This document shows, piece after piece, positions 4,924-49,445 of a DNA stretch of 64,000 nucleotides. Every line of letters starts with the position of its first letter. Within the stretch, counting starts at the first letter, position 1. The stretch is taken from positions 2,042,501-2,106,500 of the forward strand of contig NZ_CP035033.1 of assembly GCF_004028275.1 (NCBI RefSeq), in the 5' to 3' direction. This DNA is from Hydrogenovibrio thermophilus (GTDB lineage Bacteria; Pseudomonadota; Gammaproteobacteria; Thiomicrospirales; Thiomicrospiraceae). A program made the position numbers and the translations under genes. The notes under the pieces were generated by a model that had not been told where the DNA came from, searched no databases, and saw only the letters and a list, made by a program, of their open reading frames with translations.

Positions 4924-5129
4924 CCCCCAAACCTGCCCCAATGCATCACACAGGGGCACCAAAAGAATGCAGCGCCGCATTCAAAATATCACCAAAAATA
5001 CATAACCCATTGAAAAACAAACAATAACCAGCTTGGTATAACGATTGCTTATTACGATTAAAGAAAAACGTAATAAATTTATCCTCCGAAGCAGAAGGCA
5101 TAAATAAGCATTTCGAGAGAGAGCAAGCT
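4924..5129. other. intergenic region before the guanidine operon
   Basis: This 206-bp gap holds a possible weak terminator for the preceding genes (TGCCCC and GGGGCA flanking 13 nt, near 4932-4956, no T run) and the operator described next. I looked for guanidine-I, -II and -III riboswitch hallmarks and saw none. No convincing -35/-10 pair stands out, although TATAAC occurs at 5037-5042. Confidence 0.6.
5049..5076. promoter_or_regulatory. 28-bp inverted repeat, operator O1 of the NikR-like regulator
   Basis: TTATTACG (5049-5056) and CGTAATAA (5069-5076) form a perfect 8-bp dyad with a 12-bp spacer. Measured on outer hexamers it is 6-16-6, the geometry of the known NikR operator (GTATGA-N16-TCATAC). 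It lies 53 bp before the start codon of an operon that encodes a NikR-like protein. Near-identical dyads occur at 46381-46408 and 49396-49423. Binding by that regulator is inferred. Confidence 0.75.
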
Positions 5130-6110
5130 ATGGCATTATTTTCAAAATCCTGGACAACGCCTCGCGTTCCCTTAGATAAAACATCGCGAATCTGGCTGAC
5201 CTTCGCCAGCTTCGCCATTCCGATTCTGCTTTGGTCATTGGTGAGCTACTCGCCTTACATCTGGCATCCGCAAATGAAAATCTCCGATCCCGGCGATGTT
5301 TCCTACTTCCGCAAAGACAGCCTGATCGATAAAGAAATCTATTATCGCGAAATGGACAAGTTGCTGACCAAACAGGCGGAAGAACAGGCTGAGATCAAGC
5401 TGCCGCAAGGCGTTCCGTCCAATCCGGTTTATCTGCCGGCGCCACACGAAGTGCTGACCGCGCTTTACACGGCCTTCACGACCCCGCCCAAACGCAGTAA
5501 CGAACCTTGGTTTCACGAAAGCCTGGGGCATTCGATTCAAGTCATCGCTTGGGGATTTTTCTGGTCAATGGTCTTTGGCTTGCCGCTCGGCATTTTAGCC
5601 GGTACCTATGAATCGGCATCACGTGTTATCGAGCCGTTCACCGAATTTTTCCGTTACTTACCGGCCCCCGCTTTCGGTGCCTTGGCCGTCGCCATTTTAG
5701 GGATTTACGACGCCCCGAAAATCGCCATTATTTTCATCGGAACCTTTTTCCAAATGGTGTTGATTACCGCCAACACCACACGCAAACTGAACATGGCGCT
5801 CATCGAAGCCTCGCTGACGTTGGGCTGCAAAGGACTCTCCTTGATTCGCCGCGTGATCATTCCGGGCATTCTGCCGGATCTGTATCGCGACATGCGTATT
5901 CTGCTGGGCTGGGCTTGGACTTACTTGATCGTGGCCGAGCTCATCGGCACCAGCTCCGGGATTACCTGGTTCATCACCCAGCAAGCCCGTTACAAAAACT
6001 TCGACAATGTTTTCGCCGCGATTTTAATTATCGGGATTATCGGCCTGGTGACCGACCTGGTTCTGGCCCGCATCGGCAAACGCCTTTTCCCTTGGCACGG
6101 TTCACACTAA
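5130..6110 (+). CDS. ABC transporter permease of guanidine operon (NitT/TauT type)
   Basis: This 326-residue inner-membrane permease has an N-terminal membrane segment (about 21-42), a long periplasmic stretch, and then the BPD_transp_1 core. Its cytoplasmic coupling loop is EASLTLGCKGLSLIRRVIIPG, typical of nitrate/taurine/urea-type importers. It pairs with the ATPase 10 bp downstream. The operon carries no substrate-binding protein; the orphan binding protein at 45387-46364, under a matching operator, is the best candidate partner. The substrate is probably guanidine or a related cation, judged from the downstream enzymes. Relatives next to such enzymes are usually annotated as putative urea transporters. 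Confidence 0.85.
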   Translation: MALFSKSWTTPRVPLDKTSRIWLTFASFAIPILLWSLVSYSPYIWHPQMKISDPGDVSYFRKDSLIDKEIYYREMDKLLTKQAEEQAEIKLPQGVPSNPVYLPAPHEVLTALYTAFTTPPKRSNEPWFHESLGHSIQVIAWGFFWSMVFGLPLGILAGTYESASRVIEPFTEFFRYLPAPAFGALAVAILGIYDAPKIAIIFIGTFFQMVLITANTTRKLNMALIEASLTLGCKGLSLIRRVIIPGILPDLYRDMRILLGWAWTYLIVAELIGTSSGITWFITQQARYKNFDNVFAAILIIGIIGLVTDLVLARIGKRLFPWHGSH

Positions 6111-6120
6111 GGAGCACGGA

Positions 6121-7032
6121 ATGACACAAGCACAACACCCCTTAGACTTATGGCAAACGCCGGAAATCCAGGACCGTAACCAACGCATACTCAAACGTCC
6201 CAAGGCGCTTGAAATCCAAAACCTGGAAATGTCTTTCGAACATAAAGGCAAAACCAACAAAGTCCTGGGCGGCATCGATTTCACCGCTTTCAAGCGTGAA
6301 TTCGTCTGCGTGGTCGGACCATCCGGTTGCGGTAAATCCACTTTGGCTCGCCTCATCGCCGGTTTGGAAACCAAGGACAGCGGCGACATTTTGGTGGAAA
6401 ACAAACAAGTGGTCGAGCCCGGCCCGGATCGCGGCATGGTTTTCCAAAGCTACTCGCTTTTCCCGTGGATGTCGGTAAAAGAAAACGTCATGTTCGGTCT
6501 CACCCAAGGCGGCATGTCGAAAAACACCGCCGAAACCGAAGCCTTGCAATGGATTGACCTGGTCGGGCTGGAGAAGTTCGCCGAAGCCTATCCGCACCAA
6601 CTGTCGGGCGGCATGAAGCAGCGCGTCGCAATTATCCGCGCCCTAGCGAACCAGCCGAAAATCCTGCTGATGGACGAACCGTTCGCCGCGCTGGATCCGC
6701 AGAACCGATTAAAGATGCAACAGTATCTGCTGGAAATCTGGCAGAACATCGACATCACCATTTTCTTTATCACCCATGATTTGGACGAAGCCATTTATCT
6801 GGCCGACCGAATCCTGGTATTGGATGCCAACCCGGGCCGGGTGCGCGAAGTGGTCAATGTGCCATTGCCGCGTCCGAGAGCGGACGACACGCTGCTAAGC
6901 CCGGCGTTCATGGCCACCAAAGAATATTTGGAAAGCCTGGTGCATCCACCCGAGCCCGAGCTGGACTTTGAGGAAAAACTCAGCATGGTCCGCCTCGTTC
7001 CCGTTAACGCAGAAGTTCCGGATGTATTTTAA
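6121..7032 (+). CDS. ABC transporter ATP-binding protein of guanidine operon
   Basis: The 303-residue cytoplasmic ATPase energises the preceding permease. It has Walker [10 protein letters not shown] (66-74), Q-loop VFQS (107-110), signature LSGGM (161-165), Walker B ILLMDEP (181-187) and an H-loop THD. It is longer than the 250-260 residues usual in this family because of an N-terminal extension of about 30 residues and a C-terminal tail of about 40. AAGGAG precedes the ATG. The stop codon abuts the start of the NikR-like gene with no gap, which indicates tight cotranscription. Confidence 0.9.
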   Translation: MTQAQHPLDLWQTPEIQDRNQRILKRPKALEIQNLEMSFEHKGKTNKVLGGIDFTAFKREFVCVVGPSGCGKSTLARLIAGLETKDSGDILVENKQVVEPGPDRGMVFQSYSLFPWMSVKENVMFGLTQGGMSKNTAETEALQWIDLVGLEKFAEAYPHQLSGGMKQRVAIIRALANQPKILLMDEPFAALDPQNRLKMQQYLLEIWQNIDITIFFITHDLDEAIYLADRILVLDANPGRVREVVNVPLPRPRADDTLLSPAFMATKEYLESLVHPPEPELDFEEKLSMVRLVPVNAEVPDVF

Positions 7033-7506
7033 ATGACTCAGAACAACAAAGGCCTTGTCCGCACCAGCGCTTCCCTACCCGCCAAAGTACTGGAAGACCT
7101 GGATCAGCTCGTAATCGACCGCGGTTTTAACAACCGCTCTGCCCTCTTGGCGGAAATGATTCAAAAGGAAGTCTCGGCGTATCGCCAAGACTACACCAAT
7201 GAAGTCATGGCCGGCACCCTGACACTGGTGTACGACCACGCCGTGCCCGGCTTGCAGGTCAAGCTGAATCAGCTTAAGCATCAATACGTGGCGGAAATCA
7301 TCTCCTCCACCCAAATTCAATTAATGGACCACCACACCTTGGAGGTCAATCTGATGCAAGGCGCGGCCGACCAGCTGAACCGCATCAGCCACGAAATGAT
7401 TTCCAACCGGGGCGTGAAAACCGGCAACCTTTACTTGACCCATTCGGCCCTACCACCGATTCACACTTCGGTCACCGACTCGTCACAGGAGACTCAAAAT
7501 GACTGA
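7033..7506 (+). CDS. NikR-like ribbon-helix-helix regulator lacking nickel ligands
   Basis: This 157-residue protein has an N-terminal ribbon-helix-helix domain (about 8-50: RTSASLPAKVLEDLDQLV) and a C-terminal ACT-like NikR domain recognisable from TLVYDH, VAEIISSTQIQL and ISHEMISNRGVKTGNL. In E. coli NikR nickel is bound by His76, the HVH pair (His87, His89) and Cys95. Here the first His survives in VYDH, but the HVH pair reads QIQ and the Cys position is not Cys. The protein has therefore probably lost nickel sensing and may sense another ligand, perhaps an intermediate of guanidine metabolism. Its likely operators are the 28-bp dyads at 5049, 46381 and 49396. It overlaps the next gene by 8 bp. 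Confidence 0.85.
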   Translation: MTQNNKGLVRTSASLPAKVLEDLDQLVIDRGFNNRSALLAEMIQKEVSAYRQDYTNEVMAGTLTLVYDHAVPGLQVKLNQLKHQYVAEIISSTQIQLMDHHTLEVNLMQGAADQLNRISHEMISNRGVKTGNLYLTHSALPPIHTSVTDSSQETQND

Positions 7507-8263
7507 CAACACTTCATCCAAAACCACCAGGCCTGGTGATTTCATCTGGCAAGAAAGCTTGCCGGGTGGCGGCCACTGGTCCGGCGTCATTCGCCGCGGC
7601 ACCGTTTTGCGTTTAACCGATGTGGAAGGCGGCGCCAATGTCGCCATGCTCATCAACAACCTGGAAGTCAAAAGCGAACGTTACAACATGCCGGACACCT
7701 TGAAAGCGCAGAAAACCGCTTTCCTGACCCGTCCGAACATGTGTTTCAGCGATATGGGGCGCGTGATGTGCTCGATTATCGAAGACACCTGCGGCTGGCA
7801 CGACACCATCGGCGGCTTGTCGCACGCGGCGTTGGTGCATAAAAAATACGGCGATAAGTCCTATCAGGAAGCCCACAACGACTACTACAAAAACGGCTAC
7901 GACAGCCTGTTGAACGAGCTTGGCAAATGGGGCCTAAACGCCAGCGACATCATGCCGAACATCAACTGGTTCAGCAAAGTGCGCGTCGAAGACGACGGCC
8001 AAATGACTTTTGTCCCGAACAACTCCAAAGCGGGCGACTACGTTGATTTGCGCTTTGAAATGGACAGCATCGTCTCTTTGTCCACCGCACAACATCCGTT
8101 GGATCCGAACTCGGAATACGCTCCGAAACCGATTCAACTGACCGTGTTCAAAGCGCAACCGGTCGCGCAGGACGACGCCAGTCGCCTCCACCGTGCCGAA
8201 AACGAACGCGCTTACTACAACACCAAAATTTACTATGGAGAAAACCCAAATGACGACATCTAA
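7499..8263 (+). CDS. cgdA: carboxyguanidine deiminase subunit (DUF1989, 'urea carboxylase-associated protein 1')
   Basis: The 254-residue product belongs to DUF1989. Proteins of this type beside 'urea carboxylase' were long called UAAP1/UAAP2; they are now known as the two subunits of carboxyguanidine deiminase, which converts carboxyguanidine to allophanate and ammonia. The conserved block [12 protein letters not shown] (near 98-109) supplies the metal-binding Cys/His pattern shared with the next gene. AGGAG lies just before the ATG. Length and first position fit the longer subunit; assigning it as A rather than B is from memory. A CCAGGCCTGG copy (7527-7536) encodes residues 10-13. Confidence 0.85.
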
Positions 8264-8894
8264 CGTTGATGAAAGCCGTATTGTCTATCGCGAAGTGGTC
8301 GAAGCGGGTAAACCATGGATGCACGAAGTCAAAGCCGGACAACATTTCCGCATTGTCGACCTGGAAGGTAACCAGGCGGTCGATACCCTGTTTTACAACG
8401 CCCACGACCACAGCGAGCGCTATTCGGCGGCGGACACCATCCGCGAACAAGGCAACATCTATTTGACCACCGGTTCGGTACTGCAATCCAACTTGGTCAA
8501 CCCGATGCTGACCATCACCGACGACACCTGTGGCCGCCACGATACCATCGGCGGTGCCTGTTCGGCGGAGAGCAACACCGTGCGCTACGCCATTGAAAAA
8601 CGCCACATGCACTCGTGCCGTGATTCCTTCCTGATGGCGTTGGGAGAATGTGAATGCAACCACGGTCAGCAAATGACCAAGGATGACCTCGCCAGCAACA
8701 TCAATTTCTTTATGAACGTGCCCGTTTCACCGGACGGCCATCTCGATTTCGACGACGGCATTTCCGCACCGGGGCGCTATGTGGAAATGAAAGCCCATAT
8801 GGATGTGTTGGTGTTGGTGTCCAATTGCCCGCAATTGAACAACCCTTGTAACGGCTACAACCCGACACCGGTTGAAATGATTATCTGGGAATAA
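8250..8894 (+). CDS. cgdB: carboxyguanidine deiminase subunit (DUF1989, 'urea carboxylase-associated protein 2')
   Basis: The 214-residue DUF1989 protein is the second subunit of carboxyguanidine deiminase. ATG 8250 is chosen over upstream in-frame starts because GGAG lies about seven bases before it and because it gives a 14-bp overlap with cgdA, as expected for translational coupling of complex partners. Conserved blocks are [14 protein letters not shown] and [18 protein letters not shown], with several Cys and His residues suited to metal binding. Together with cgdA it gives a cytoplasmic heteromer acting between guanidine carboxylase and allophanate hydrolase. Confidence 0.87.
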
Positions 8895-8943: not shown

Positions 8944-11900
8944 ATGTTTAAGAAAGTTCTCATCGCCAACCGTGGCGCCATCGCCACCCGGATTATCCGT
9001 ACACTTCGCACCATGGGCATCCAATCAGTGGTGCTGGCGTCCGACGCCGACCGTACATCGCTGCACGTGCTGGAAGCCGACGAAGTCATTTCCCTACCGG
9101 GCAATGTCGCCACCGAAACCTATCTGAACGTGCCGTTGATTTTAGAGCACGCTCAGGAATTGGGCGTCGAAGCAATCCACCCTGGCTACGGTTTTTTGAG
9201 TGAGAACGCCGGTTTCGCCGAAACCTGTGAAAGCATGGGCATCCGATTCATCGGCCCCACGCCCGAACACATCCGCGATTTCGGTTTAAAACACACCGCA
9301 CGCGAACTGGCCATTAAAGCCGAAGTGCCCTTACTGCCCGGCTCCGATTTGCTCGAAACGCTCGAAACGGCGTTAGAAGAGGCCGAGCGCATCGGTTACC
9401 CGGTCATGCTGAAAAGCACGGCCGGCGGTGGCGGCATCGGCATGCAGCGTTGCGACGATGCCGAAGCGCTTTCCGAAGCGTTTGAGAAGGTTGCGCGTTT
9501 GAGCCAAAACGCCTTCGGCCAAAGCGGCATTTTTCTGGAAAAATTCGTCGTCAACGCCCGCCACATCGAAATCCAGATTTTCGGTGACGGCCTGGGCCAA
9601 GTCGTTTCCTTCGGCGAGCGTGACTGTTCCTTGCAGCGCCGTAACCAAAAGGTCGTTGAAGAAACCCCGGCCGTGGGCATCTCCCGCGAACAGGTCGCGG
9701 AAATGGAAGCCCACGCCGTGCGTCTCGGAGAGCTGGTCAGCTACCGCTCCGCCGGCACGGTGGAATACGTTTATGACGCGGACACCGAACAATACTATTT
9801 CCTCGAAGTGAACACCCGTTTACAGGTCGAACACGGCATCACCGAAGCGGTGCGCGACGTCGATTTGGTGGAGTGGATGATTCAAGTCGCCTTTGACCAA
9901 ACCTTCCCAGGCCTGGTCAAACCGGCGCAAGGCCACGCCATTGAAGTCCGTGTTTACGCCGAAGACCCGTTCAAGAATTTCCAGCCAAGTTCCGGCCGTC
10001 TCACCGGCTGGAAAATGCCGAGCGACTGCCGAGTGGATACCTGGTGCAGCAGCGGTCAGGAAGTCAGCTCCTTCTACGACCCGATGCTGGCAAAAATCAT
10101 CGTCAAAGGCCAAAACCGTGACGACGCCGTGGCCAAACTGCAAACGGCCATGGACGAAACCCGCATCGACGGCTTCGAGACCAATGCGACTTATTTGAAA
10201 ACCCTCAGCCATGCCGAGGCGTTCATCAAAGCCGAAAACCTCTATACGCGCTTTTTGAACGGCTTTACCCATCAGCCCGACACGGTCGAAATCACCAACG
10301 CCGGCACCCACTCCATGCTCATCAGTTATCCGGGCCGAACCGGTTATTGGGACATCGGCGTGCCGCCGTCCGGGCCGATGGACGCCTTATCGCACCGTTT
10401 GGCCAACCGCTGTCTGGGCAATGCCGATGACGCTGCGACCATCGAAATGACCGTGTCCGGCGTCAGCATGACCTTCGACCGCGATGCCGTCATCTGCATC
10501 ACCGGGGCTGATGTGCAACCGACGCTGGATAAACAGCCAATTCCGCAGTGGCAAGCCGTGGAAGTGAAAGCCGGTCAACAACTGAAATCCAAAGTCATCA
10601 AATCCTTGGGACAGCGGGCGTATCTCGCCATCCAAGGCGGCTTCAGCGTACCGGATTACATGGGCAGTAAAACCACCTTCTCACTGGGCGGTTTCGGCGG
10701 TCATGCCGGGCGATTGCTGCGCGCCGGCGACGTCCTGCACATTCCGGCGGACACCGCCGGCATCAGCGCCACCCAGCCGATTCCGGCCGAGCTGATTCCC
10801 AACTTGGAAAACGAGGTGGAAATCGCGGTGATTTACGGCCCGCAAGGCTCACCGGATTTTTTCACCGAAGGCGACATCGACACCTTCTTCTCCACCGCTT
10901 GGGAAGTCCACTATAACTCCAGCCGAACCGGCATCCGCCTGATTGGCCCGAAACCGACTTGGGCACGAACGGACGGCGGCGAAGCCGGTCTGCATCCGTC
11001 CAACATCCACGACAACGCTTACGCCATCGGTGCCATCGACTTCACCGGCGACATGCCGGTCATCTTGGCGCAGGATGGCCCGAGCCTGGGCGGCTTTGTC
11101 TGCCCGGCCACTATCATCGAAGCCGAGCAATGGAAAATGGGGCAATTGCGTCCCGGCGATACAGTGCGCTTCAAGCCGGTGTCCATCGACACCGCCGAAG
11201 TCGCACTCAAAGCGCAAGATGCCGCCATCAGCGCACTGGATGCCTCTGTCGTTTCCGACCTGACCTATCTGTCGGAACCGACCGAACAATCCTGCCTGGC
11301 GAAAGAACTGCCGGCCGGCGAACACGAGTTCGGCGTCAAATACCGCCGTTCCGGCGACAGCCATGTGCTCATCGAATACGGGGCTATGGAACTGGACTTG
11401 GCCTTGCGCTTCCGCATTCAAGTGCTGACCGACAAATTGAAAGAACTCAAAAACGACCAGGCCTGGGCATTTTTGAAGGATTTAACGCCGGGCATCCGCT
11501 CTTTGCAGGTGCACTACAATCCACGCCAAATTGCCCAAAACGACCTGATTCAAAAGCTGGTCGATCTGGAAGCGGAAATTTCATCCGCCAAAGACCTCAC
11601 GGTGAAAAGCCGCATCGTCAAACTGCCATTGTCATGGGACGATCCGAGCACGCGTCTGGCCATCGAAAAATACATGAATTCGGTGCGCCCGGATGCGCCT
11701 TGGTGTCCGAGCAATATCGAGTTCATCCGCCGCATCAACGGTCTGGATTCGATTGAAGACGTCAAACGCATCGTTTTCGAAGCCAAATACCTGGTCATGG
11801 GACTGGGCGACGTTTACCTCGGCGCGCCGGTTTCCACGCCATTAGACCCGCGTCACCGTCTGGTCACCACCAAATACAACCCGGCCAGAACCTGGACGCC

Positions 11901-12567
11901 GGAAAATGCCGTGGGCATCGGCGGCGCTTATATGTGTGTTTACGGCATGGAAGGCCCAGGCGGTTATCAGTTTGTGGGGCGCACTATCCAAATGTGGAAC
12001 GCCTATCGCAACACCCAATATTTCCCACCGGGCAAACCTTGGTTGCTGGATTTCTTCGACCAGATTCAGTTCTATCCGGTCAGTGAAGACGAGCTGAAAC
12101 AAGCACGCCACGACTTCCCGTTGGGCCGTTTCGACATCGACATTGAAGAAACCACCTTGTCTCTGGCCGATTATCAGGCGTTCCTGGCCGAAGAAGCCGA
12201 CAGCATCGCCGAATTCCAGACCAAGCAAAAAGCCGCTTTCGAAGCCGAACGCCAACGTTGGGAAGCCAACGGCCAAGCCAACTACGAAGACACGTCATCC
12301 CAAGAGGAAATTCAAAACGAACCGATGGCCGAAATCCCGGAAGGCTTTGAAGCCGCCCTGTCGCCGATTACCGGCAGCGTCTGGAAAATTCAGGTCAAAC
12401 CCGGCGATGCGGTGGCCGAAGGCGATGTCATCGCCATTCTGGAAACCATGAAAATCGAAATTCCGATTGAAGCGGAATACGACGGCACCGTCACCGAAAT
12501 TCTCATCAACGAAGGGGATTTGATTCAAAACGGCCAAGCCTTGCTGGTCATGGAGGTATCGGAATGA
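8944..12567 (+). CDS. guanidine carboxylase (urea carboxylase family), biotin-dependent
   Basis: This 1207-residue enzyme uses ATP and bicarbonate to carboxylate guanidine. Domains in order: biotin carboxylase with ATP-grasp (about 1-450; glycine-rich [12 protein letters not shown], later [12 protein letters not shown]), the KipA/KipI-like carboxyltransferase halves (about 460-1080), and a C-terminal biotinyl domain with ETMKIE, biotinylated Lys near 1170. Family members are usually annotated as urea carboxylase; in operons with cgdAB, as here, they prefer guanidine. It starts 49 bp after cgdB behind AAAAGG and overlaps atzF by ATGA. CCAGGCCTGG copies lie at 9907-9916 (PGL frame) and 11457-11466 (QAW frame). 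Confidence 0.9.
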
Positions 12568-14357
12568 TCGATTGTCGCATCGCGTCTTTACGCCAGGCCT
12601 ATGGCGAAGGCCAACTCACGCCGCGTCAAGTGGTCGAGAGCCTGCATCAACAGACGGGCCATTACACGGATTACAACCTTTTCATCCATGTGTTGACGGA
12701 TGAAGAACTGGCGCCTTATCTGAACCGCTTGGAAGAATCGGAGCCCAACAGCCTGCCGCTGTGGGGCATTCCGTTTATGATCAAAGACAACATCGATTTG
12801 GCGGGCATTCCCACCACGGCGGCCTGTGAAGAATTCGCCTACGTGCCGGAGCACTCCGCCACGGTGGTGCAACTGTTGATTGACGCCGGTGCCATTCCGC
12901 TTGCCAAAACCAATATGGACCAGTTCGCCACCGGCTTGGTCGGCACCCGTTCGCCTTACGGCGTGTGCCACAATGCGTTTGATTTCAACATGATTTCCGG
13001 CGGGTCCAGCTCCGGTTCGGCCGCCTCGCTGGCATTGAATTTATGCAGTTTCTCGCTGGGCACGGACACCGCCGGTTCCGGTCGAGTGCCCGCCGCGTTC
13101 AACAACCTGATTGGCCTGAAACCGTCCAAAGGCCTTTTGAGCACGTCCGGCGTGGTGCCTGCGGTTCGCTCGCAGGATGTGGTGAGCATTTTTGCCTTGA
13201 ACGCCCAGGACGCTTACAAGGTGTTTGACGTCGCCGCCCAGCCGGATGACACCGACGAATTCAGCCGAGACGAAATGGCCCTGACACCTCCAGCCTGGGC
13301 AGCCAAACCCGTCATCGGCATTCCCGACGCCGCCGGTTTGATTTTTTATGACGACCACGAGGCGCAAGCCAACTTTGAGGCCACGGTCACACAACTGAAA
13401 AGCCAAGGTTTTGACATTAAGGAAATCGATTTCACCTTATGGCTGGAAACCGCCAAACTCTTATACGGTGGCGCTTGGGTGGCGGAGCGCTACGCCGCCA
13501 TTGAAGCCTTTTTCGAAGCCCATGAAACCCAACTCGACCCGACGGTGGGCGGCATTATCGCCGGTGCCCGCAACTTGAGTGCGGCCGACGCTTACAAAGG
13601 CAGCTATGCCCTGCAGCAGGCGCAGCGCGATACCCGCGCCGTGTGGCAGGACATCAATTGTTTCATGACGCCGACCACGCCGACCATTTTCAGCACCGAG
13701 CAAATCGAACAAGACCCGGTGGGGCTGAATTCGGTGCTCGGCACCTACACCAATTTCATGAATTTATTGGATTACGCCGCCGTCGCCATGCCGACCGGCT
13801 TGCGAAACGATAGCTTACCGACCGGAGTGACCTTTTTCGCCCCCGCCGGCAGTGATCGCGCCTTGTTGAAACTGACCGACGCGTTACACAACCAGTTCAA
13901 CAAAACGGCGGGCGCCAAAGCACTGCCGATTCCGGCGCCAAAAGCCGAATTGTTCGACACGCCACACACTATTTCATTGGCGGTGGTCGGCGCCCACTTG
14001 GTCGGATTTCCATTGAATGGACAATTAATCGAACGCGGTGCGACCTTGTTGCAAACCACGAAAACCGCGCCGAAATACCGTTTTTACCAACTGGCCGGCG
14101 GCCCGATTCTGAAGCCAGGCCTGGTGAAAACCAATACTGACGGTGCCAGCATTGAAGTGGAAGTCTGGTCCATGCCCAAGCAGCATCTCGGCACCTTTTT
14201 GGCGTTGATTCCTTCCCCACTGGGGCTGGGAAAAGTGGAATTGATTGACGGCTCACAAGTGGTCGGCTTTATCTGCGAACCTTACGGCATTGAAGGCGCC
14301 ACCGACATCACCCATACCGGTGGGTGGCGCAATTGGATGAAACAAAATGCTTTATGA
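12564..14357 (+). CDS. atzF: allophanate hydrolase
   Basis: The 597-residue amidase-signature enzyme converts allophanate to CO2 and two ammonia. The Ser-cisSer-Lys triad is readable: Lys74 in MIKDNID, cis-Ser148 in GGSSSGSAA and nucleophile Ser172 in GSGRVPA, with the same 24-residue Ser-Ser spacing as Pseudomonas AtzF. The C-terminal domain (about 450-597) that completes decarboxylation is present. Its start overlaps the carboxylase stop by ATGA, and its own stop overlaps the LysR start in the same way. It would serve both guanidine breakdown (through CgdAB) and biuret breakdown (through BiuH). A CCAGGCCTGG copy lies at 14115-14124. Confidence 0.95.
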
Positions 14358-15259
14358 ACATTGATGAAAACTATGTAAAACTGTTGAAGATTTATGCCGC
14401 CGTCGTGGAGTCCAACGGTATTGCCAATGCGCAAGCGCGCTTGAATAAAGATGCATCCACCATCAGCCGAGCCATCACCCAATTGGAAAAACGCTTGCAA
14501 CTCACTTTATGTAATCGTGGCCGAAGTGGGTTTGAGGTGACGCCGGAAGGCAGTTTAGTCTATGAAGAGTCCTTAAAACTTTTTACAGGGTTCAGAGGGT
14601 TCGAAAAAAGAGTGGAATCCTTAAGCGGCAAAGGGTTACAAAGTTTAAGTATCGGCATTATCGACAATGTCATAACCGATCCAAATTGCCCGCTGCTTCT
14701 CGCCATTAAGCAATACTGCGCCGATAGTCATCCAGACGTAATGCTGAACATTGGGGTACAGACACCCCATGAATTGGAAAAGCAATTGCTCGACAAACGA
14801 ATTGACATGGCTTTGGGCATCTTTGAAAGCAAACACGATGCGATTAGCTACACTCCGATTTACCAAGAAACCGATTATCTTTACTGCGCGGTCGACAGTG
14901 ATTTGGGAAAGAAGATTCAAACCGAAAACACTGACGGCAACATATTTGATTGGTTAAACGGTCAAAACTTTGTGTCTCGCAATTTTCTCAAAGAAACCGA
15001 TTTAATTGAACTGAATCTTGAAACCTACGGGCACGTAACTTATACCGAAAACCTTGAAGCGATGATGTTTTTGATTCTTTCAGGACAATATATCGGCTTT
15101 ATTCCTCAACACTATGCCGATAGCTTTGAAAAACAGGGAATCCTCATTCCTGTTCTACCCAAACAGTTTTTTCATATCTCTGTTGTTGAAGCCGCACATC
15201 TCACAAGAGATGAGACGCTTCGAAACGTCATCGGACAATTTTTCAAGCAACTGAAGTAA
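14354..15259 (+). CDS. LysR-family transcriptional regulator
   Basis: The product has an N-terminal winged helix (about 6-65: LKIYAAVVESNGIANAQARL, then DASTISRAITQLEKRL) and a periplasmic-binding-like effector domain, 301 residues in all, normal for LysR. ATG 14354 overlaps the atzF stop (ATGA), so it may be translated from the end of the guanidine transcript. The biuret transporter operon begins 109 bp downstream on the same strand and is the most likely target. Base composition turns visibly more AT-rich from here on, unlike the guanidine genes. The effector is unknown; biuret or allophanate are reasonable guesses. Confidence 0.88.
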   Translation: MNIDENYVKLLKIYAAVVESNGIANAQARLNKDASTISRAITQLEKRLQLTLCNRGRSGFEVTPEGSLVYEESLKLFTGFRGFEKRVESLSGKGLQSLSIGIIDNVITDPNCPLLLAIKQYCADSHPDVMLNIGVQTPHELEKQLLDKRIDMALGIFESKHDAISYTPIYQETDYLYCAVDSDLGKKIQTENTDGNIFDWLNGQNFVSRNFLKETDLIELNLETYGHVTYTENLEAMMFLILSGQYIGFIPQHYADSFEKQGILIPVLPKQFFHISVVEAAHLTRDETLRNVIGQFFKQLK

Positions 15260-19403: not shown

Positions 19404-19474
19404 TATTTATGGCATATGCTTTGCTCTTACCCTAATCACTATTATTTGTAAAAACAACCAAAAAGGCGAGTAAA

Positions 19475-43097: not shown

Positions 43098-44459
43098 TCA
43101 GAACAAGTGGCTGTAACGCTTGATTTCCCATTCGGAAATCGTGCGGTGGTACTCCTCCCATTCTTCGGTTTTGTATTTAATGAACTCGTTGCGCAGTTCG
43201 GAACCCAGCACTTCCTCAACAAACGGATCGGCCGCAAAGGCTTCCACCGCCTCCGCCAAGTTTTGCGGCAGGAATTCGATACCTCTTTCCAAACGCTCGG
43301 CTTCCGACAACTCATACAGGTTGTCTTCCTGCGGCATGCCCGGATCCAATTTCTCACGCACCCCTTGCAAACCGGCCGCCAACACCAACGTCGCCGCCAG
43401 ATACGGATTCACCGAGCCGTCGGCATTACGCGACTCGAAACGCCCGCCGCCCATCGGCACTCGCACCGAATTGGTTCGGTTATTGGAACCGAAGGAATTG
43501 AACACCGGCGCCCAGGAGAAGGTTGCCATCGCCCCTTGGCGAATCAGGCGCTTGTAACTGTTGACCGTCGGCGAGAAAACCGCACACAAGGCCGGGCCAT
43601 GCTTCAAAACACCAGCAATGAAGTGGTAACCGATTTCGGTCAAGCCCAAACCGCGCGGATCGTCTTTCGGATCACAGGCAAAGACGTTTTCGCCGGTATC
43701 CTTATCGAACAACGACATATTGAAATGCGCCCCGTTACCGGTTTTATTCGCAAACGGCTTCGGCATAAAGGTCGCCAGCAAACCTTCTTCCTGCGCATAG
43801 TGTTTCGCCATGTAACGGAAGAAAATAAAACGGTCGCACATGGTCAGCGCATCGCTGAACTTGAAATCGAATTCATACTGACCGTTGGCGTCTTCGTGGT
43901 CGAGCGAGTACAAATCCCAACCCAAATCGTTGATGGTGGTCGCCATCTTATCCAGCCAGCTGAAGCGGTTCATAAAGCTGCGCACGTCATAACACGGCTT
44001 AATGAGCTTATCGTCCTTATCCGGCACGGACAAGGAACCGTCTTCTTCCTCTTTCAGCACGAACAACTCGCACTCGATTCCCAAGTTAAACCCGAAGCCC
44101 ATCTCTTCGGCTTCCGCCAAGACTTTCTTCAAAGCAACACGCGTGTTGATTTCATAAGGCTCGCCGTGCAAGGTATTGTCGGCCGCCATCCAAGCCACCT
44201 CCGGTTGCCAAGGCAGTTGAATCAAACTGTCCAGATCCGGCACCGAAGCGATTTCATCGTCGTTCGGCATCTGCCCCAAACCATCCAATGCGTACCCCGT
44301 GTACAATTCGGACCCTTCCACCATATGGTGCAAATGGTCAATCGGCACGAACTTCCCTTTCGGCACCCCGTGAATGTCCACATAAGCACCCAAACAATAT
44401 TTGATGCCCATGTCTTTCAAGCGGCGCTGCATCGCATCCACATCAATTTTCGAATTCAT
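43098..44459 (-). CDS. glnT: type III glutamine synthetase family protein (GlnT-like)
   Basis: The 453-residue glutamine synthetase-fold ligase has the N-terminal beta-grasp [22 protein letters not shown] and metal sites GIECELFVL and [10 protein letters not shown], and the substrate region [10 protein letters not shown]. The sequence looks like the GlnT ('type III glutamate-ammonia ligase') group of rhizobia and methylotrophs, which includes enzymes that glutamylate ammonia or alkylamines such as methylamine. It lies 12 bp after the creatininase-like gene, so it may capture the amine or ammonia that enzyme releases. Distinguishing ammonia from methylamine needs an alignment. Confidence 0.85.
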
Positions 44460-44471
44460 TTGTTTATCCTT

Positions 44472-45239
44472 TTATCCCTTTGTTTGATCAAAATAGCCAT
44501 GAGGCAAAGGCGCCTCTTCTTGTAAGCCTTTCACCACCAGAGCGCTGAGATCATCCACCATCCAATCGAACAGCTCCCGGCCTTTTTCAACCGAAGCGTC
44601 GCTCGGTTTTCCGGTCACGCCATTCAAACTGGTGCGATTCACCGGATGGGAAAACACGCAGTCTTCCGTCCGGTCCGGATCATCACTGGTTGTTAACTTA
44701 TCGTTCCGCACCAAGTTCGGCGCCAACGCCATCATCAATGACGTTTCCGCCTCATTGGCGTGCCAATCCTCGGCGTCGTCGAAATGCCGCTCCTTGACGC
44801 GTTCGCTGACGGTGGACGAATTAATCAGCGCCACCATAAAGCCGTCGTGCTCAGCACGCAGCATTTCCAACGCACAGCGTAACGGCGCGAAATTGGACAC
44901 ATGACTGTTGAGAATGAACAGGCGCTTGAACCCGGAAGCCGCCACCCAGTCGCCGATTTCCTTAACCACATCAATCAAGGTTTTCGGCTGCAAGGCAATG
45001 GTGCCCGGCCAGCGATGCGAGTGCCCAATGGAACAGCCGTAAGGCAAAGTCGGTAGCACCGCAACCTGGGTTTTGGCCGAGACCTGCTCACTCAAATGAC
45101 GGGCGATTTCCGAATCCATGCCACACCCCAAGTGCGGACCATGCTGTTCGGTCGCTCCGACCGGCAGCAATGCGGCATCCATGCCCTGTTCGACCAACTC
45201 GCCGATTTCTTCCCACGTCAGGTCATGCCATAACTTCAT
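44472..45239 (-). CDS. creatininase-family amidohydrolase
   Basis: The 255-residue creatininase-fold hydrolase has metal ligands Glu31 and His33 (GATEQHGPH) and Asp42 (MDSE), plus GHSHRWPGT. In creatininase itself the loop NGHYEN supplies His120 and Glu122; here it reads NSHVSN, so the Glu ligand is missing and true creatininase activity is doubtful. The ATG at 45239 follows AAGGAGA and is preferred over 45266. No creatinase gene is nearby. It may open another cyclic or linear amide, perhaps a guanidine derivative, given its neighbours. Confidence 0.8.
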   Translation of the reverse strand: MKLWHDLTWEEIGELVEQGMDAALLPVGATEQHGPHLGCGMDSEIARHLSEQVSAKTQVAVLPTLPYGCSIGHSHRWPGTIALQPKTLIDVVKEIGDWVAASGFKRLFILNSHVSNFAPLRCALEMLRAEHDGFMVALINSSTVSERVKERHFDDAEDWHANEAETSLMMALAPNLVRNDKLTTSDDPDRTEDCVFSHPVNRTSLNGVTGKPSDASVEKGRELFDWMVDDLSALVVKGLQEEAPLPHGYFDQTKG

Positions 45240-45335
45240 GGTTTTCTCCTTCAACTCGGTTTTCAAATAAGCCGCACCCCTTACCCCATACCAGGTACGT
45301 TGCGAATAACAGAAAACAGAGAGGTGTTAAAAGAC

Positions 45336-45361
45336 AAGGCCACTGGAACCAGTGGCCTTTT
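45336..45361 (-). terminator. intrinsic terminator after the orphan binding-protein gene
   Basis: AAGGCCACTGG (45336-45346) and CCAGTGGCCTT (45349-45359) form a perfect 11-bp stem with a tight loop. On the minus strand the stem is followed by TGTCTTTT, so it would end the transcript of the binding protein at 45387. On the plus strand it is followed only by TTGAG. The creatininase-glnT pair downstream probably has its own promoter or depends on read-through. Confidence 0.82.
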
Positions 45362-45386
45362 GAGTCCGATTCAGCCGTTCAGCCGA

Positions 45387-46364
45387 TTACAGACCCGTTG
45401 TGATGGAAGGATCGATATAAGCGTTCACGTCTTGTGGCGTATCGTAAACTTTGTTGGCGACGTTGAAGTCGTCAGACAATTGTGTCGAACCATACAGAGA
45501 GCTGAACCCAGATCCTTTTTGGAAGTGTTTCTTCGCTTCTTCCAAGGTCAGGATTTTGGTGCCGTCCACAAACCCTTTATACTCGTCCGGAGACAGGCCA
45601 ACACGAGAAGACATGATTTCGATGGCTTCGTCATAGTGCTTCGGATCCTTGATGAAATCCACAACGCGATACCAGACTTTGGCCACTTTTACCCAATCGT
45701 CGCGATTCGCCGACAAACTGCTTGGCGAGACACACAACATATCGTAAATCAAACCTGGCTCATCTTTACTGGTATAGATGGCTTTCGAACCCGGTACCAA
45801 GTTCAATGCCGAACCGGAGCTTGGCTGCCAAGCGACAATCGCATCCACTTGACCGGACGCCAAGACTTGTGGGGTTTCATTGGTCGGCACATTCACCAAC
45901 TCCACATCGCCTTCGCTCATGCCATTGGCTTTCAAAGCGTTCAGCAACAACAGGTGGCTCACGAAACCGACTTCCACGCCGACTTTCTTGCCTTTCAAAT
46001 CCTTAACGGATTCAATGCCCGGCGCACCGATCACCATATCGTTACCGTTACTGTAGTCATTCATTAGGAACATAACGCTGCGCGCACCGGTCGCACCGGT
46101 TACCAACGCATCACCGTTGGTCATGCCAACCGCGTCCAACTGTCCGGCCGCGAAGGCATCCATTGACGCCACATAGTCAAACCATTCGAATTTGACGTCC
46201 ACGCCTTCTTCTTTAAACCAATCTTTTTCGATTGCGACCTGCCAAGCCACCCATCCTGGCCAGTCACTGTATCCAATCTTCAACGGCTCGGCACTGACCG
46301 ACATCGCTTGAACAGAAAGCAACAGCCCCGCAAGACCACCTAATAGCTTTTTATATGAGAACAT
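45387..46364 (-). CDS. orphan NMT1/THI5-like substrate-binding protein, probable guanidine/urea-type
   Basis: The 325-residue periplasmic binding protein has a Sec signal (about 1-25, cleavage after SVSA). [42 protein letters not shown] and [13 protein letters not shown] match, as I recall them, the binding proteins annotated as 'urea carboxylase region' ABC components. It has no permease or ATPase beside it and is bounded by its own terminator. The operator just upstream (46381-46408) matches the one before the guanidine operon, whose permease and ATPase lack a binding protein, so the two halves probably form one importer encoded 40 kb apart. Confidence 0.83.
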
Positions 46365-46380
46365 GATTACACCACCTTAG

Positions 46381-46408
46381 TTATTACAATTTAAGAGAAA
46401 GGTAATAA
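46381..46408. promoter_or_regulatory. 28-bp inverted repeat, operator O2
   Basis: TTATTAC (46381-46387) and GTAATAA (46402-46408) are separated by 14 bp, giving the same 28-bp span as O1 at 5049-5076. The arms are identical and 10 of 14 spacer bases also agree, so 24 of 28 positions match O1. It lies 16 bp before the binding-protein start on the minus strand, beside TATAAA, a position suited to repression. Confidence 0.78.
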
Positions 46409-46484
46409 TTTATAAACACAGGTCGAACCAAAAAACTTTTTGTCTTTATTTTTCAACAACATAACAAAAACAACGTGATTTTAG

Positions 46485-46500
46485 CCGATCCTAAGATCGG
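46485..46500 (-). terminator. possible terminator hairpin after the EamA permease
   Basis: CCGATC-CTAA-GATCGG forms a 6-bp stem with a 4-nt loop; the flanks GATTTTAG and TTAAATC extend pairing imperfectly. It lies 45 bp past the stop of the minus-strand EamA gene but lacks a strong T run, so it could instead be an operator dyad. Confidence 0.4.
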
Positions 46501-46545
46501 TTAAATCGCATTACTTTGGGTCAAATATTTTTCATATGGTGCAAT

Positions 46546-47406
46546 TCAGTGCCCGTTTGCACGACGAGCTTCCAGGAACGCCGCCACCACAATTAACAAG
46601 CCGCCGACCATTTCCGTCGGGCTCATGGTTTCATTCAACAGAATACTGGCCGACAAGACCGCCGTCACCAGCTCCATAATAATGATGATCGAAGAACGTC
46701 CGGCTTCCATGTGCGTCACCGCCCATTGCGTCCCAAGGTTGGCCATCATCATCCAAACCGCGCCGAACAAGAACAAAATCCCCCAGGCCTGAAGACTGAC
46801 ATCCGGCAAGGTCGGCAAGGACATCACCTGAATGACCCCGCTGGCCATCAACACCGAACCGCCGAACATAAAGGCTAACTTTAGCGACACGTCCACCTTC
46901 GGCGACACCCGGAAAGCAATGTTATTCATGGCAAACAAAAAACCGGACAACAGCGCCAGCGCATCAATCCAGGACGGCGGCGATTCCAGGGCTTTCCAAC
47001 CGCCCACCACCAAGAAGGCGCCGGACACCGCCAGCCCTAACCCTAACCAACGCACCCGGTCGATGGCTTCCCCCAAAAACAGGCGGCCGCCAATCACGCC
47101 CCAAACCGGCAAGAGATAGAACAGCACCATGACCCGAATCACCTCGCCGTAAATCATCGCGGTATTGAACGCCAGCTGCGCCCCGCCACCCAACACACCG
47201 ATGGCCAGCAAGATTTTCCAGGACGGACGAATTTCCGAACGTTTGCGCCAAATCCACGGCAAAATCACCACCAACATAATGGTGTACAAAAACAAGGTCA
47301 GCGGAATGCCGTCAAACCCCATCTCATGCAAATACTTCAACGGCAACCAAGCCAGGCCCCATAAAACCGAGGAAAAAAACAGCACCACCGTGGCGACAAG
47401 TTCCAT
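46546..47406 (-). CDS. EamA/DMT-superfamily permease
   Basis: The 286-residue inner-membrane protein has about ten hydrophobic segments in two EamA repeats, the drug/metabolite transporter pattern. Members often export amino acids, amines or related metabolites. An intrinsic terminator (47436-47460) separates it from the MBL gene upstream, so it may be transcribed from its own promoter or by read-through; AAGGA lies before the ATG. Between an oxygenase/MBL pair and a guanidine-type binding protein, it may export a by-product. A near copy of the iterated palindrome (46783-46792) encodes Gln-Ala-Trp. Confidence 0.82.
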   Translation of the reverse strand: MELVATVVLFFSSVLWGLAWLPLKYLHEMGFDGIPLTLFLYTIMLVVILPWIWRKRSEIRPSWKILLAIGVLGGGAQLAFNTAMIYGEVIRVMVLFYLLPVWGVIGGRLFLGEAIDRVRWLGLGLAVSGAFLVVGGWKALESPPSWIDALALLSGFLFAMNNIAFRVSPKVDVSLKLAFMFGGSVLMASGVIQVMSLPTLPDVSLQAWGILFLFGAVWMMMANLGTQWAVTHMEAGRSSIIIIMELVTAVLSASILLNETMSPTEMVGGLLIVVAAFLEARRANGH

Positions 47407-47435
47407 AACCTAAAATCCTTAAAAATCCATCATCC

Positions 47436-47460
47436 AAAAAAAAGACAGCGTGACGCTGCC
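47436..47460 (-). terminator. intrinsic terminator after the oxygenase-MBL operon
   Basis: The minus strand reads GGCAGCGTCACGCTGTC, a short GC-rich hairpin, followed by eight T residues (plus-strand A run 47436-47443). It lies 44 bp after the MBL stop and should end the transcript that starts before 49327. Confidence 0.85.
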
Positions 47461-47503
47461 GGGTAAGTTACTAACGTAAAGCGGGCCTGACGGCTCCGCC
47501 TTT

Positions 47504-48286
47504 CTACTCGAAAAAGTTCGGGAATCGATTATGGCGCTGGAAAAATGCCCAATCATGATTCGGCCAAAGCGCCGCCTGCTGTTTCTCACTGAGGTATTTC
47601 AATTTACGGATACTCTCGATCGCCAATTGCTCGTTATCCTGCCAGCACAAACCGGGCGCGACTTCATCTTCGATATTCTCCGTCAAGTCCGCCGCATCAC
47701 CCGCCAACAAAATCGGCGGGCCTTTCGGCAACTCCACCAGCATCGACATATGCCCCGCAGTATGCCCCGGGGTTTCAATCGCACTGACCCCATCGGTTAA
47801 ATCGTACTCGCCGGTTTGCAACTTCCAATTCAAGGGCAACTCGAAATCGGATGCAAAATAAGCATCGTCCGCCGGCTCTTTCGCCGCCGCCATTTCCTGA
47901 GCGTGGACATGCACTTCGGCATGGCAGAATTCGCATAAGCCGCCGGCATGATCGAAATGCAAATGACTGCAAAACACCAAATCCACGTCTTCGGTTTTCA
48001 ACCCCAGTTCCTGCAAACGATTCGGTAAACGTTCTTCCTCATCCATTTCCGGCGGCCCGAATGGAAAACCGTCGTGCTCGTAATAATGGGCGCGCTGCTC
48101 TTTTTGCTGAATTTTTTGATAATCACACCCCACATCAAACAGAATGCGACCGTTTTTGGTTTCAATCAAATAGGCCAAAATCGGCGCCTGAATGATTTCA
48201 CCCTGTCCGCGCCCGCGCGTGGACAAGGTTTTTTCATAGGTATGACGGCCGGTGAGAATCGGCCAAAATTTGGTTACTTGCGTCAT
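47504..48286 (-). CDS. metallo-beta-lactamase-fold hydrolase
   Basis: The 260-residue MBL-fold hydrolase of the N-acyl-homoserine-lactonase-like group carries the dinuclear zinc motif HLHFDH (His108, His110, Asp112, His113), a third His in ETPGHTAGH, Asp in LAGDAAD and the final His in PNHDW. It lies 18 bp downstream of the second desaturase-type oxygenase in the same operon. It probably hydrolyses a lactone, cyclic amide or ester formed after oxygenation. Quorum quenching is possible, but the context favours catabolism. Confidence 0.85.
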   Translation of the reverse strand: MTQVTKFWPILTGRHTYEKTLSTRGRGQGEIIQAPILAYLIETKNGRILFDVGCDYQKIQQKEQRAHYYEHDGFPFGPPEMDEEERLPNRLQELGLKTEDVDLVFCSHLHFDHAGGLCEFCHAEVHVHAQEMAAAKEPADDAYFASDFELPLNWKLQTGEYDLTDGVSAIETPGHTAGHMSMLVELPKGPPILLAGDAADLTENIEDEVAPGLCWQDNEQLAIESIRKLKYLSEKQQAALWPNHDWAFFQRHNRFPNFFE

Positions 48287-48304
48287 GTTCGCTCCAATCT
48301 CGTT

Positions 48305-49327
48305 TTAATGCGCCGTCAAAAAAGACACGCCATCCACACCGATAAAGCTTTCGCCTTCATCCTGCTTCACCGGCAAATTGACAGGGTCGGCGTTTAAAAT
48401 GCGCGGCACACGATAACGGTGGAAACTTTTCATAAGATGGCGGAACGTCAACACTTGACGCTCGTCGTCGCCATAGGATTCCTGGTGCAATTTTGGCAAC
48501 CGATACCAAGGCTGTAACATGCTGTCATGATGGACATTGTGATAACAGAAATTCAGCACCAGCAAGTTCACCCAAGGGTGCTTTTCCGACAGCAGATTGG
48601 AATAAGTATTGTCGTGCTCGAATTGAGCGTCGCGCAGGCGCGCTTCCGGCCCGCGCTTTTGATCCAGAGTTTCATACACGTCATAAGTATGCTGATGCGT
48701 ATCCATAAAACGCATCACCGTCAAGAACATCAAATACGCAATCGGATACAACCACAATACATCAATCGACACCGAAGCCAGCGCCCAGAAAAACGCCACG
48801 CGAACCACCAAAAAGAACACCACGCGCGCCCGTCTGGAACGGCGGCTTTCTTTAATAAACGGCAAGACGATGACCAGAAAGTGCATCCAGACTTCCAACG
48901 CCGGAATGTAAAACCATTCCAGGGTTTTCAACAGTTTCAAAAATCGCGGATGCTTTTCCAACAACGGACGAAAGTCGAACGACACCACATCCGCCCGGTC
49001 GATATGATGGCGGTTGTGTTTGTTACGAATATCGTCGAAATGCGAATAACTGGTGCCGGTAATCCACAACAGAATTTCCGAAAACCACTGGTTATGCTCT
49101 TTTTTTCGGAACAAACTCAAATGCGCCGTTTCATGAATCAGATAGGCCGCAATCACCATCGAATGCGCCAGCGCCAAAACCCCCACCGCATTCAGCCAGC
49201 CCGAATCGGACAGCATAAAATACAACCCGAATCCGTAGGTCAATAACACATACCCAAATGCCAACGCATTCGGCAAGGCTGCATCGTCGTGCCGGAACAA
49301 ACCGGTTGCCTTATTTGTTTTCACCAT
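48305..49327 (-). CDS. desaturase-type membrane di-iron oxygenase, paralogue 2
   Basis: The 340-residue membrane protein has the His boxes HETAH, HNRHH (after DDIRNK) and HNVHH, arranged as in paralogue 1 at 20336-21349; identical or near-identical blocks include YSNLLS, HPWVNLL/YPWVNLL, RFMD and the terminal GVDGVSFLTA. ATG 49327 follows GAGGCGA and is preferred to the TTG at 49357. It is cotranscribed with an MBL hydrolase. Upstream lie both a NikR-type dyad (49396) and the TGCAAAT-type palindrome (49434) of the first oxygenase cluster. It has no adjacent rubredoxin and may share the one at 24060. Confidence 0.83.
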   Translation of the reverse strand: MVKTNKATGLFRHDDAALPNALAFGYVLLTYGFGLYFMLSDSGWLNAVGVLALAHSMVIAAYLIHETAHLSLFRKKEHNQWFSEILLWITGTSYSHFDDIRNKHNRHHIDRADVVSFDFRPLLEKHPRFLKLLKTLEWFYIPALEVWMHFLVIVLPFIKESRRSRRARVVFFLVVRVAFFWALASVSIDVLWLYPIAYLMFLTVMRFMDTHQHTYDVYETLDQKRGPEARLRDAQFEHDNTYSNLLSEKHPWVNLLVLNFCYHNVHHDSMLQPWYRLPKLHQESYGDDERQVLTFRHLMKSFHRYRVPRILNADPVNLPVKQDEGESFIGVDGVSFLTAH

Positions 49328-49362
49328 CTTCGCCTCACTTAATCCACTGATTCCCAAAACCG

Positions 49363-49372
49363 CCAGGCCTGG
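49363..49372. repeat. CCAGGCCTGG palindrome in the leader of oxygenase 2
   Basis: This exact copy lies 35 bp upstream of the oxygenase start codon. The flanks AAAACCG and TGATTATT resemble those of the copies at 3012 and 7527, giving a half-site consensus close to AAAYCRCCAGG. Confidence 0.85.
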
Positions 49373-49395
49373 TGATTATTCAGTCGATTGACACA

Positions 49396-49445
49396 TTATT
49401 ATGAAAGTTACATTTAGTAATAATAAAATTATGTGCAAATCTGCA
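49396..49445 (-). promoter_or_regulatory. dual operator region of oxygenase 2: 28-bp dyad O3 and TGCAAAT-type palindrome
   Basis: TTATTAT (49396-49402) and GTAATAA (49417-49423) give the third 28-bp dyad, one arm base off from O1 and O2. TGCAAATCTGCA (49434-49445) is one mismatch from the palindrome of the 18.9-19.5 kb regulator. On the minus strand TTGCAG is followed after 18 bp by TATTAC, so the palindrome would cover the -35 and the dyad the -10. The same layout, TTGCAA-N18-TATGCT, occurs before 19475. Confidence 0.65.

Follow-up and report, generated by a model that had tools for sequence, protein, structure and literature searches.

Three 28-bp dyads of the form TTATTAC-N14-GTAATAA lie in a 64,000-nucleotide stretch of Hydrogenovibrio thermophilus DNA (contig NZ_CP035033.1; hereafter the window), before a guanidine degradation operon, a binding-protein gene and the gene of a membrane oxygenase. 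Judging from sequence, we consider it probable that these dyads are bound by a repressor of the NikR fold, which would respond to guanidine or a close derivative of it and not to nickel, and which would act on top of control by nitrogen starvation. The dyads and the gene of the candidate repressor are the following:

5049..5076, no strand: dyad 1, exact TTATTAC-N14-GTAATAA, presumed operator of the guanidine operon; starts directly 3' of the −12 element
46381..46408, no strand: dyad 2, exact TTATTAC-N14-GTAATAA, presumed operator of the binding-protein operon
49396..49423, no strand: dyad 3, one mismatch, presumed operator of the oxygenase operon
7033..7506, + strand: NikR-like ribbon-helix-helix (RHH) regulator, with H83, Q94, Q96 and T102 at the nickel-ligand positions (H, H, H and C in NikR)

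Dyads and their conservation in the genus

A motif search of the window recovered the three dyads where a preliminary description of this DNA had placed them, two of them exact and the third with a single mismatch. Their location in promoter regions was also borne out, as they precede the permease gene (5130), the binding-protein gene (46364, − strand) and the oxygenase gene (49357 as listed, probably about 49327, − strand). The same description had counted 24 identical positions of 28 between dyads 1 and 2. That figure is correct on the + strand, but it falls to 19 of 28 when both sites are read in gene direction and, because it depends on the strand and the genes lie on opposite strands, no weight was given to it. 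Dyad 3 is the weakest of the three sites, with one mismatch and a distance of 23 bp from its −12 element against 0 or 7 bp.

When up to three mismatches were accepted, five matches were found in the window versus a mean of 1.14 in shuffled sequences, and only 1 of 100 shuffles reached five. The genome-wide search that had been proposed as a check yielded two exact sites and one with a single mismatch in the 2.61-Mb genome, all within one 45-kb stretch. The nine sites with two mismatches were every one outside the window. With up to three mismatches the dyad was not enriched in the genome (91 sites versus 169 for the reversed control pattern) and, therefore, only near-exact sites carry weight.

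Among 11 genomes of the genus, its own included, 31 places matched the dyad with at most one mismatch, versus 17 for the reversed control pattern. Each of the 12 exact dyads stands upstream of one of three targets, namely the guanidine operon, the binding-protein gene and the creatininase gene. As for the 19 dyads with one mismatch, 10 lie upstream of the first two of these targets or of the oxygenase, 8 are elsewhere, and the remaining one, on contig 33 of genome G008, has the letters of the G007 guanidine-operon site reversed and was counted as a probable regulon site. The spacing of the arms is fixed at 14 bp while the spacer sequence varies. The NikR-like gene, the binding-protein orthologue and the oxygenase co-occur in the same 9 of the 11 genomes; no exact dyad was found in G002 and G010, which are without the NikR-like gene, and neither were the binding-protein and oxygenase orthologues.

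The NikR-like regulator

The claim that the guanidine operon encodes a NikR-like protein was confirmed by Pfam, since both RHH_1 and NikR_C scored above cut-off. All of the 50 Foldseek matches shown for the AlphaFold2 model of the regulator (predicted local distance difference test, pLDDT, 78) were NikR chains. The 6-16-6 geometry of the dyads likewise equals that of the Escherichia coli NikR operator, described as GTATGA-N16-TCATAC (PMC7055735). The likeness to NikR holds for fold and operator geometry but not for the nickel site, where the set of four ligands is absent. The regulator also missed the NCBIfam NikR equivalog cut-offs (98.1 versus 105, 65.5 versus 83 and 60.1 versus 175.45 bits).

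The nickel site of NikR is formed by His76, His87, His89 and Cys95 in E. coli numbering (PMC7055735). This full HHHC set was present in 20 of 20 ordinary NikRs versus 0 of 26 members of the NikR-like clade, in all of which the cysteine is replaced by T, S or I. In 24 of these 26 there are changes at the first histidine, at the histidine pair or at both, and the members of loci L127 and L129 read HHHT. A tree of 43 rows, from which three near-identical rows had been dropped beforehand and which carried a warning of long branches, separated the NikR-like clade from the ordinary NikRs, initially divided by profile score, by one branch with a support of 100/100. Control by nickel is unlikely because the regulator lacks the NikR nickel site, and it was rejected in view of the loss of the nickel ligands in the clade.

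The distribution of the regulator was surveyed in 369 genomes of the class and 398 of the phylum. In the class, a NikR-like member was found in 8 genomes (at least 119 bits; next match 92), and in 7 of them it lies inside the carboxylase operon. In the phylum, 8 further genomes have one, with carboxylase-pathway genes in the locus in 6 of 8. A dyad search that used three arm variants and tolerated a single mismatch found 9 sites in 7 of these 8 loci. Eight of the sites stand directly before the operon or the regulator gene; the ninth, in L215, is about 300 bp further upstream. In the class control, made with two arm variants, no dyad was found at the 26 carboxylase places without the regulator.

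In locus L132 (about 3240-3290), a swapped-arm dyad, GTAATAC-N14-GTATTAC, was seen by eye behind a sigma-54-like element and beside a diverged regulator, and it is possible that the operator specificity has changed there.

The guanidine operon and the content of the proposed regulon

The genes that follow dyads 1 and 2 are listed below.

5130..6110, + strand: ABC transporter permease, type A (Pfam BPD_transp_1)
6121..7032, + strand: ABC transporter ATPase, type A (profile searches)
7499..8263, + strand: presumed carboxyguanidine deiminase subunit of the cgdA/cgdB pair (UAAP1 in NCBIfam, TIGR03425)
8193..8894, + strand: presumed carboxyguanidine deiminase subunit of the cgdA/cgdB pair (UAAP2 in NCBIfam, TIGR03424)
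8944..12567, + strand: presumed guanidine carboxylase, gca (urea carboxylase in NCBIfam, TIGR02712)
12564..14357, + strand: allophanate hydrolase (TIGR02713)
45387..46364, − strand: substrate-binding protein, presumed partner of the type A transporter (profile searches, gene order in relatives)
44472..45266, − strand: creatininase-family amidohydrolase (Pfam Creatininase; under the NCBIfam cut-offs)
43098..44459, − strand: type III glutamine-synthetase-like ligase (TIGR03105 above cut-off)

The operon beginning at 5130 contains the permease, the ATPase, the NikR-like regulator, both deiminase subunits, the carboxylase and the allophanate hydrolase, with no binding protein. Its gca, cgdA, cgdB and allophanate hydrolase genes all pass their NCBIfam cut-offs, as expected of a guanidine carboxylase operon. 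We take UAAP1/UAAP2 to be carboxyguanidine deiminase and TIGR02712 guanidine carboxylase. The adjoining deiminase genes suggest that the carboxylase is specific for guanidine and not for urea. Carboxyguanidine deiminase is treated in three papers (PMC12508155, PMC12186494, PMC11410670).

The binding protein had been called an orphan. Gene order in relatives indicates instead that it completes the ABC transporter of the guanidine operon, which lacks this subunit: L127-L132, from six distant Gammaproteobacteria, begin the operon with an orthologue (68-75% identical) that is followed by permease and ATPase. The creatininase-family and glutamine-synthetase-like genes are both present in three of these six operons and the latter alone in one more. 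They too belong to the proposed regulon. In L127-L131 the regulator is in one operon with sbp, perm, atp, cgdA, cgdB, gca and atzF (and in 3 of 5 with crnA-gsl), and a dyad precedes sbp in all five. The guanidine, oxygenase and binding-protein modules are contiguous in L090 and L092 (Thiomicrorhabdus sp. ZW0627 and a Thiotrichales metagenome-assembled genome) and not contiguous in Hydrogenovibrio. In G003, G004, G005 and G009 the binding-protein and oxygenase genes form one operon with one dyad. Where they are separate, the oxygenase has a dyad of its own in G000, G006 and G001 and not in G007 and G008.

Between the binding-protein and creatininase genes (45267-45386), a G+C-rich inverted repeat was noticed by eye, perhaps an attenuating terminator.

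Sigma-54-type and NtrC-like promoter elements

Promoter elements were found before the three operons as follows:

5034..5048, + strand: sigma-54-type −24/−12 element TGGTATAACGATTGC, guanidine operon, score 12/14
46416..46430, − strand: weak sigma-54-like element TGGTTCGACCTGTGT, 7 bp before dyad 2, score 9/14
49447..49461, − strand: sigma-54-type element TGGCATACAAGGTGC, oxygenase operon, score 12/14
4942..4958, no strand: NtrC-like site, 11/14, before the guanidine operon
49525..49541, no strand: NtrC-like site, 12/14, before the oxygenase operon

The sites were scored against the consensus sequences, GG-N10-GC in the case of sigma-54. A sigma-54 score of at least 11/14 was reached in the 60 bp before the dyad in 26 of 41 gammaproteobacterial promoters versus 3.9% of random 64-bp stretches of the window, and single-base shuffles of the same promoters gave a mean of 0.25 of 41, the largest value being 4. 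The gap between the element and the dyad is 7 bp in 23 and 0 in 8 of the 41. These promoters were chosen by us, leaving aside the dyads internal to the L127 and L129 operons, matches in coding sequences, contig 33 of G008, L132, and L087, L089, L094 and L095, which are G009, G008, G005 and G007 again. The promoters of L208-L215 were scored apart, and 2 of their 9 dyad sites reached at least 11. In 33 upstream regions, also chosen by us (8.4 kb), 17 NtrC-like sites of at least 11/14 were found versus 0.17 in shuffles that preserve single-base content only. The whole 64-kb window has nine such sites, two at regulon promoters and seven in other places. One ntrC above cut-off and one rpoN are present in the genome.

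With both kinds of element, which the preliminary description had overlooked, the presumed transcription start falls within the dyads or shortly before them. A dyad with a gap of 0 or 7 would span about −11 to +24 and that of the window oxygenase (gap 23) about +13 to +40. A repressor acting at an NtrC/sigma-54 start would make expression demand both nitrogen hunger and the ligand.

A further sigma-54-type element, TGGCATATGCTTTGC (19410-19424), and an NtrC-like site (19295) stand before the tim-oxy1 operon of the window, which has no dyad.

Alternation with guanidine riboswitches

In the class survey, 33 carboxylase places were found in 32 of the 369 genomes. Eight are cut by contig ends and one atypical copy without deiminase genes was excluded. 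Of the 24 assessable, 7 have the NikR-like gene without a guanidine-I riboswitch, 17 have guanidine-I upstream without a NikR-like gene in the operon, and none has both (Fisher p 2.9e-6, not corrected for relatedness); since related genomes are not independent, p-values are indicative only, and the Fisher-combined p obtained for the dyad promoters is inflated for the same reason. The phylum loci L211-L215 agree in having the NikR-like gene and dyads with no guanidine-I, and their transporter is of the type that otherwise accompanies guanidine-I. The guanidine-II riboswitch, located between cgdB and gca, coexists with the NikR-like gene in L127, L130 and L131. A guanidine riboswitch at the operon head is common, though not invariable, in guanidine carboxylase operons. 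In the window only rRNA and tRNA families reached the Rfam gathering threshold, and a guanidine riboswitch was accordingly rejected there.

Locus L159 (5432-12674) combines two guanidine-I and one guanidine-II riboswitches in a single operon with oxygenase and TIM-barrel genes.

The oxygenase module

The operon behind dyad 3 consists of three genes.

48305..49357, − strand: oxy2, FA_desaturase-family membrane oxygenase (Pfam; true start probably an ATG near 49327 from the alignment)
47504..48286, − strand: metallo-beta-lactamase (MBL)-fold hydrolase, lactonase-like (profile searches)
46546..47406, − strand: EamA-family transporter (profile search; follows oxy2-mbl in relatives too)

The alignment of oxy2 has conserved H-x3-H, H-x2-HH and H-x2-HH clusters, and its structure model is confidently of the membrane type (pLDDT 88.9, the first 14 residues left out). 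A search of PDB sequences with the oxygenase profile gave no match, and the two Foldseek matches under E 0.001 were chloroplast motor complex subunits, uninformative on the substrate.

Members of the oxy2 family (E up to 1e-40) were found in 11 of the 369 genomes of the class, and 9 of these 11 also have the carboxylase (hypergeometric p 4e-9, not corrected for relatedness). At the oxygenase operon, six of the 11 have a known guanidine riboswitch, three the dyad (G000; G202, before sbp-oxy2; G345, imperfect) and two neither (G177 and G223, the most distant oxygenases). Guanidine-II stands directly before the oxygenase in L090, L092, L159, L174 and L176, guanidine-I does so in L175, and the latter heads the oxygenase operon in L177 and L178. 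Neither riboswitch nor dyad was found in front of oxy1, the second oxygenase copy of the window. Analogy with MgdH/MgdL of Vreelandella suggests that oxy2 and the MBL protein probably release guanidine from one of its substituted forms, the substrate being a guess. The proposal that the guanidine genes, the binding protein and the oxygenase/MBL genes form one regulon has support from the conserved sites, from co-occurrence, from the gene order of relatives and from the guanidine riboswitches before the oxygenase elsewhere.

The guanidine-I riboswitches of L177 (6395-11613) and L178 (2572-9642) head operons with binding-protein, oxygenase, creatininase-like, isochorismatase/biuret-hydrolase-like and MBL genes; G273, the genome of L177, is not among the class genomes with a carboxylase match.

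Proposed mechanism and alternative explanations

Under nitrogen starvation, NtrC and sigma-54 would drive three promoters: those of the guanidine operon, of the binding protein with the creatininase-like and glutamine-synthetase-like genes, and of the oxygenase with the MBL and EamA genes. The 7033-7506 repressor, of which the dyads are the predicted operators, would block transcription over or just past the start sites until its ligand, guanidine or a close derivative and no longer nickel, is present. As its gene lies inside the guanidine operon, it would control itself. The transporter may import guanidine or a substituted guanidine, the oxygenase may hydroxylate the carbon adjoining the guanidino nitrogen, and release of guanidine may be completed by the MBL protein, perhaps joined in relatives by the TIM-barrel protein. 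The carboxylase, deiminase and allophanate hydrolase would convert the guanidine into ammonia.

Several observations weigh against this proposal. The residues at the former nickel site vary widely among branches and, therefore, no single conserved ligand pocket is evident. In G223 the NikR-like gene adjoins transporter and glutamine-synthetase-like genes only, and the carboxylase is in a separate operon under guanidine-I; upstream of the binding-protein gene of this genome, dyad arms GTAATAC/GTATTAC were seen by eye after a sigma-54-like element. Locus L209, of which 19 kb were read, has transporter, creatininase and glutamine-synthetase genes and no carboxylase gene, and L210 is a creatininase/glutamine-synthetase pair with no dyad. 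Genome G309 (91% complete) has a dyad on another contig than the carboxylase and no guanidine-I in front of its binding protein, and a NikR-like gene was not found in it; should contigs L143 and L174 be parts of one operon, it has neither sensor. As regards the promoters, that of the window sbp has a weak sigma-54 element (9/14) and no NtrC-like site, L211-L215, which belong to another class, carry the dyad without a convincing sigma-54 element, and the oxy2 promoters of G007 and G008 have a sigma-54-like element but no dyad at up to two mismatches. Finally, the window oxy2 had no match to GntB, a hydroxylase acting on a guanidino compound, at E 0.1, and neither had that of L179.

The regulator could bind the dyads and sense a metal or another nitrogen signal, with no guanidino compound involved. 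Its fold and operator geometry are those of NikR, L127 and L129 keep three histidines, and in G223 and L209 it is found beside transporter genes with the carboxylase genes not adjoining; even so, we think this unlikely, as all 26 members have lost the cysteine ligand and 24 have altered histidines, and the regulator occupies the place that a guanidine riboswitch has in other genomes. There is still less to be said for a different regulator of the dyads, with other targets for the NikR-like protein, and we regard it as very improbable. The dyad of G309 and the LysR-family gene (14324-15259) following the window's guanidine operon would fit with it, but dyad and NikR-like gene occur together in Hydrogenovibrio and as far away as other classes, NikR has the same 28-bp 6-16-6 layout, and the LysR gene, not found in the loci of sibling G006 that keep the same three dyads, was rejected as their regulator. 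Being inverted repeats close to presumed transcript starts, the dyads might also act as RNA hairpins (attenuators) and not as DNA operators. This was rejected as extremely improbable: in 8 of the 41 promoters the dyad begins right at the −12 element, overlapping the downstream edge of the promoter element, so that part of the left arm should stay untranscribed; moreover, the 14-bp spacing is constant with a variable spacer, and the only window Rfam families at threshold are those of rRNA and tRNA.

A separate question is whether the oxygenase is catabolic at all, since its Pfam family, FA_desaturase, and its best weak NCBIfam matches, DesA and carotenoid enzymes, would also suit a lipid desaturase shielding membranes from guanidinium. 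Every named family is, however, far under its cut-off, and six scanned members of the oxygenase family weakly match GntB, an L-arginine hydroxylase. The oxygenase lies inside the guanidine operon in L159, and it has sigma-54-type promoters in common with assimilation genes. A precedent for an oxygenase feeding this guanidine pathway is MgdH/MgdL (PMC12508155). A desaturase is rather doubtful, and a catabolic oxygenase is preferred.

Comparison with known systems

The candidate regulator shares with NikR the RHH and NikR_C domains and the 28-bp, 6-16-6 operator. It differs in its operator arms (TATTAC/GTAATA and not GTATGA/TCATAC), in lacking HHHC, in being located with guanidine genes and, in Gammaproteobacteria, in its position at sigma-54-type start sites. 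Like the guanidine-I riboswitch (RF00442), the system is found in the same operons, at the operon head, and presumably answers to a related signal, whereas it is predicted to be a protein on DNA and not an RNA aptamer. In the Vreelandella operon described in PMC12508155, the oxygenase MgdH and the lyase MgdL demethylate methylguanidine, and guanidine-II binds methylguanidine as well as guanidine. The oxy2 module resembles it as an oxygenase and a second enzyme joined to a guanidine carboxylase operon, but oxy2 is a membrane protein of the FA_desaturase family, has histidine clusters and lies next to an MBL hydrolase, while MgdH is a 2-oxoglutarate dioxygenase and MgdL is modelled as a beta-barrel (PMC12508155). 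GntB, the L-arginine gamma-hydroxylase of guanitoxin synthesis, is described as a transmembrane enzyme acting on a guanidino compound (PMC10367076). Profile similarity to it is weak in oxy1 and five distant oxy2 relatives (15.9-27.7 bits; cut-off 380 bits) and the genomic context is different.

Among the papers listed in searches of the open-licence literature, none described a guanidine regulator of the NikR type or this oxygenase; absence from that literature is a weak argument. We see evenly balanced chances that guanidine or methylguanidine has replaced nickel as the ligand of the NikR-fold clade, that the clade represents the first transcription factor to respond to guanidine and that it governs a new membrane oxygenase/MBL route of guanidine release from substituted guanidines. 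If true, it would be the protein counterpart of the guanidine-I riboswitch. The clade offers a concrete, testable candidate for a guanidine sensor made of protein and not of RNA, with a defined operator; the same operon may have switched between RNA and protein control, and the oxygenases headed by riboswitches point to an unassigned source of guanidine.

Other features of the window

In comparison with sibling G006, whose regulator is 99% identical, the LysR gene, the sbpB-biuret-hydrolase-like-permB-atpB genes and the oxy1-permC-sbpC-atpC-rubredoxin reductase genes between 14324 and 25395 were not found in that genome. This stretch is probably a variable insertion carrying a second oxygenase and a second transporter, whose type accompanies guanidine-I riboswitches elsewhere. 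The region 31666-55540 is rich in nitrogen scavenging functions, including ethanolamine ammonia-lyase, formamidase/acetamidase-like and urate-oxidase-like proteins, OHCU decarboxylase and several ABC importers.

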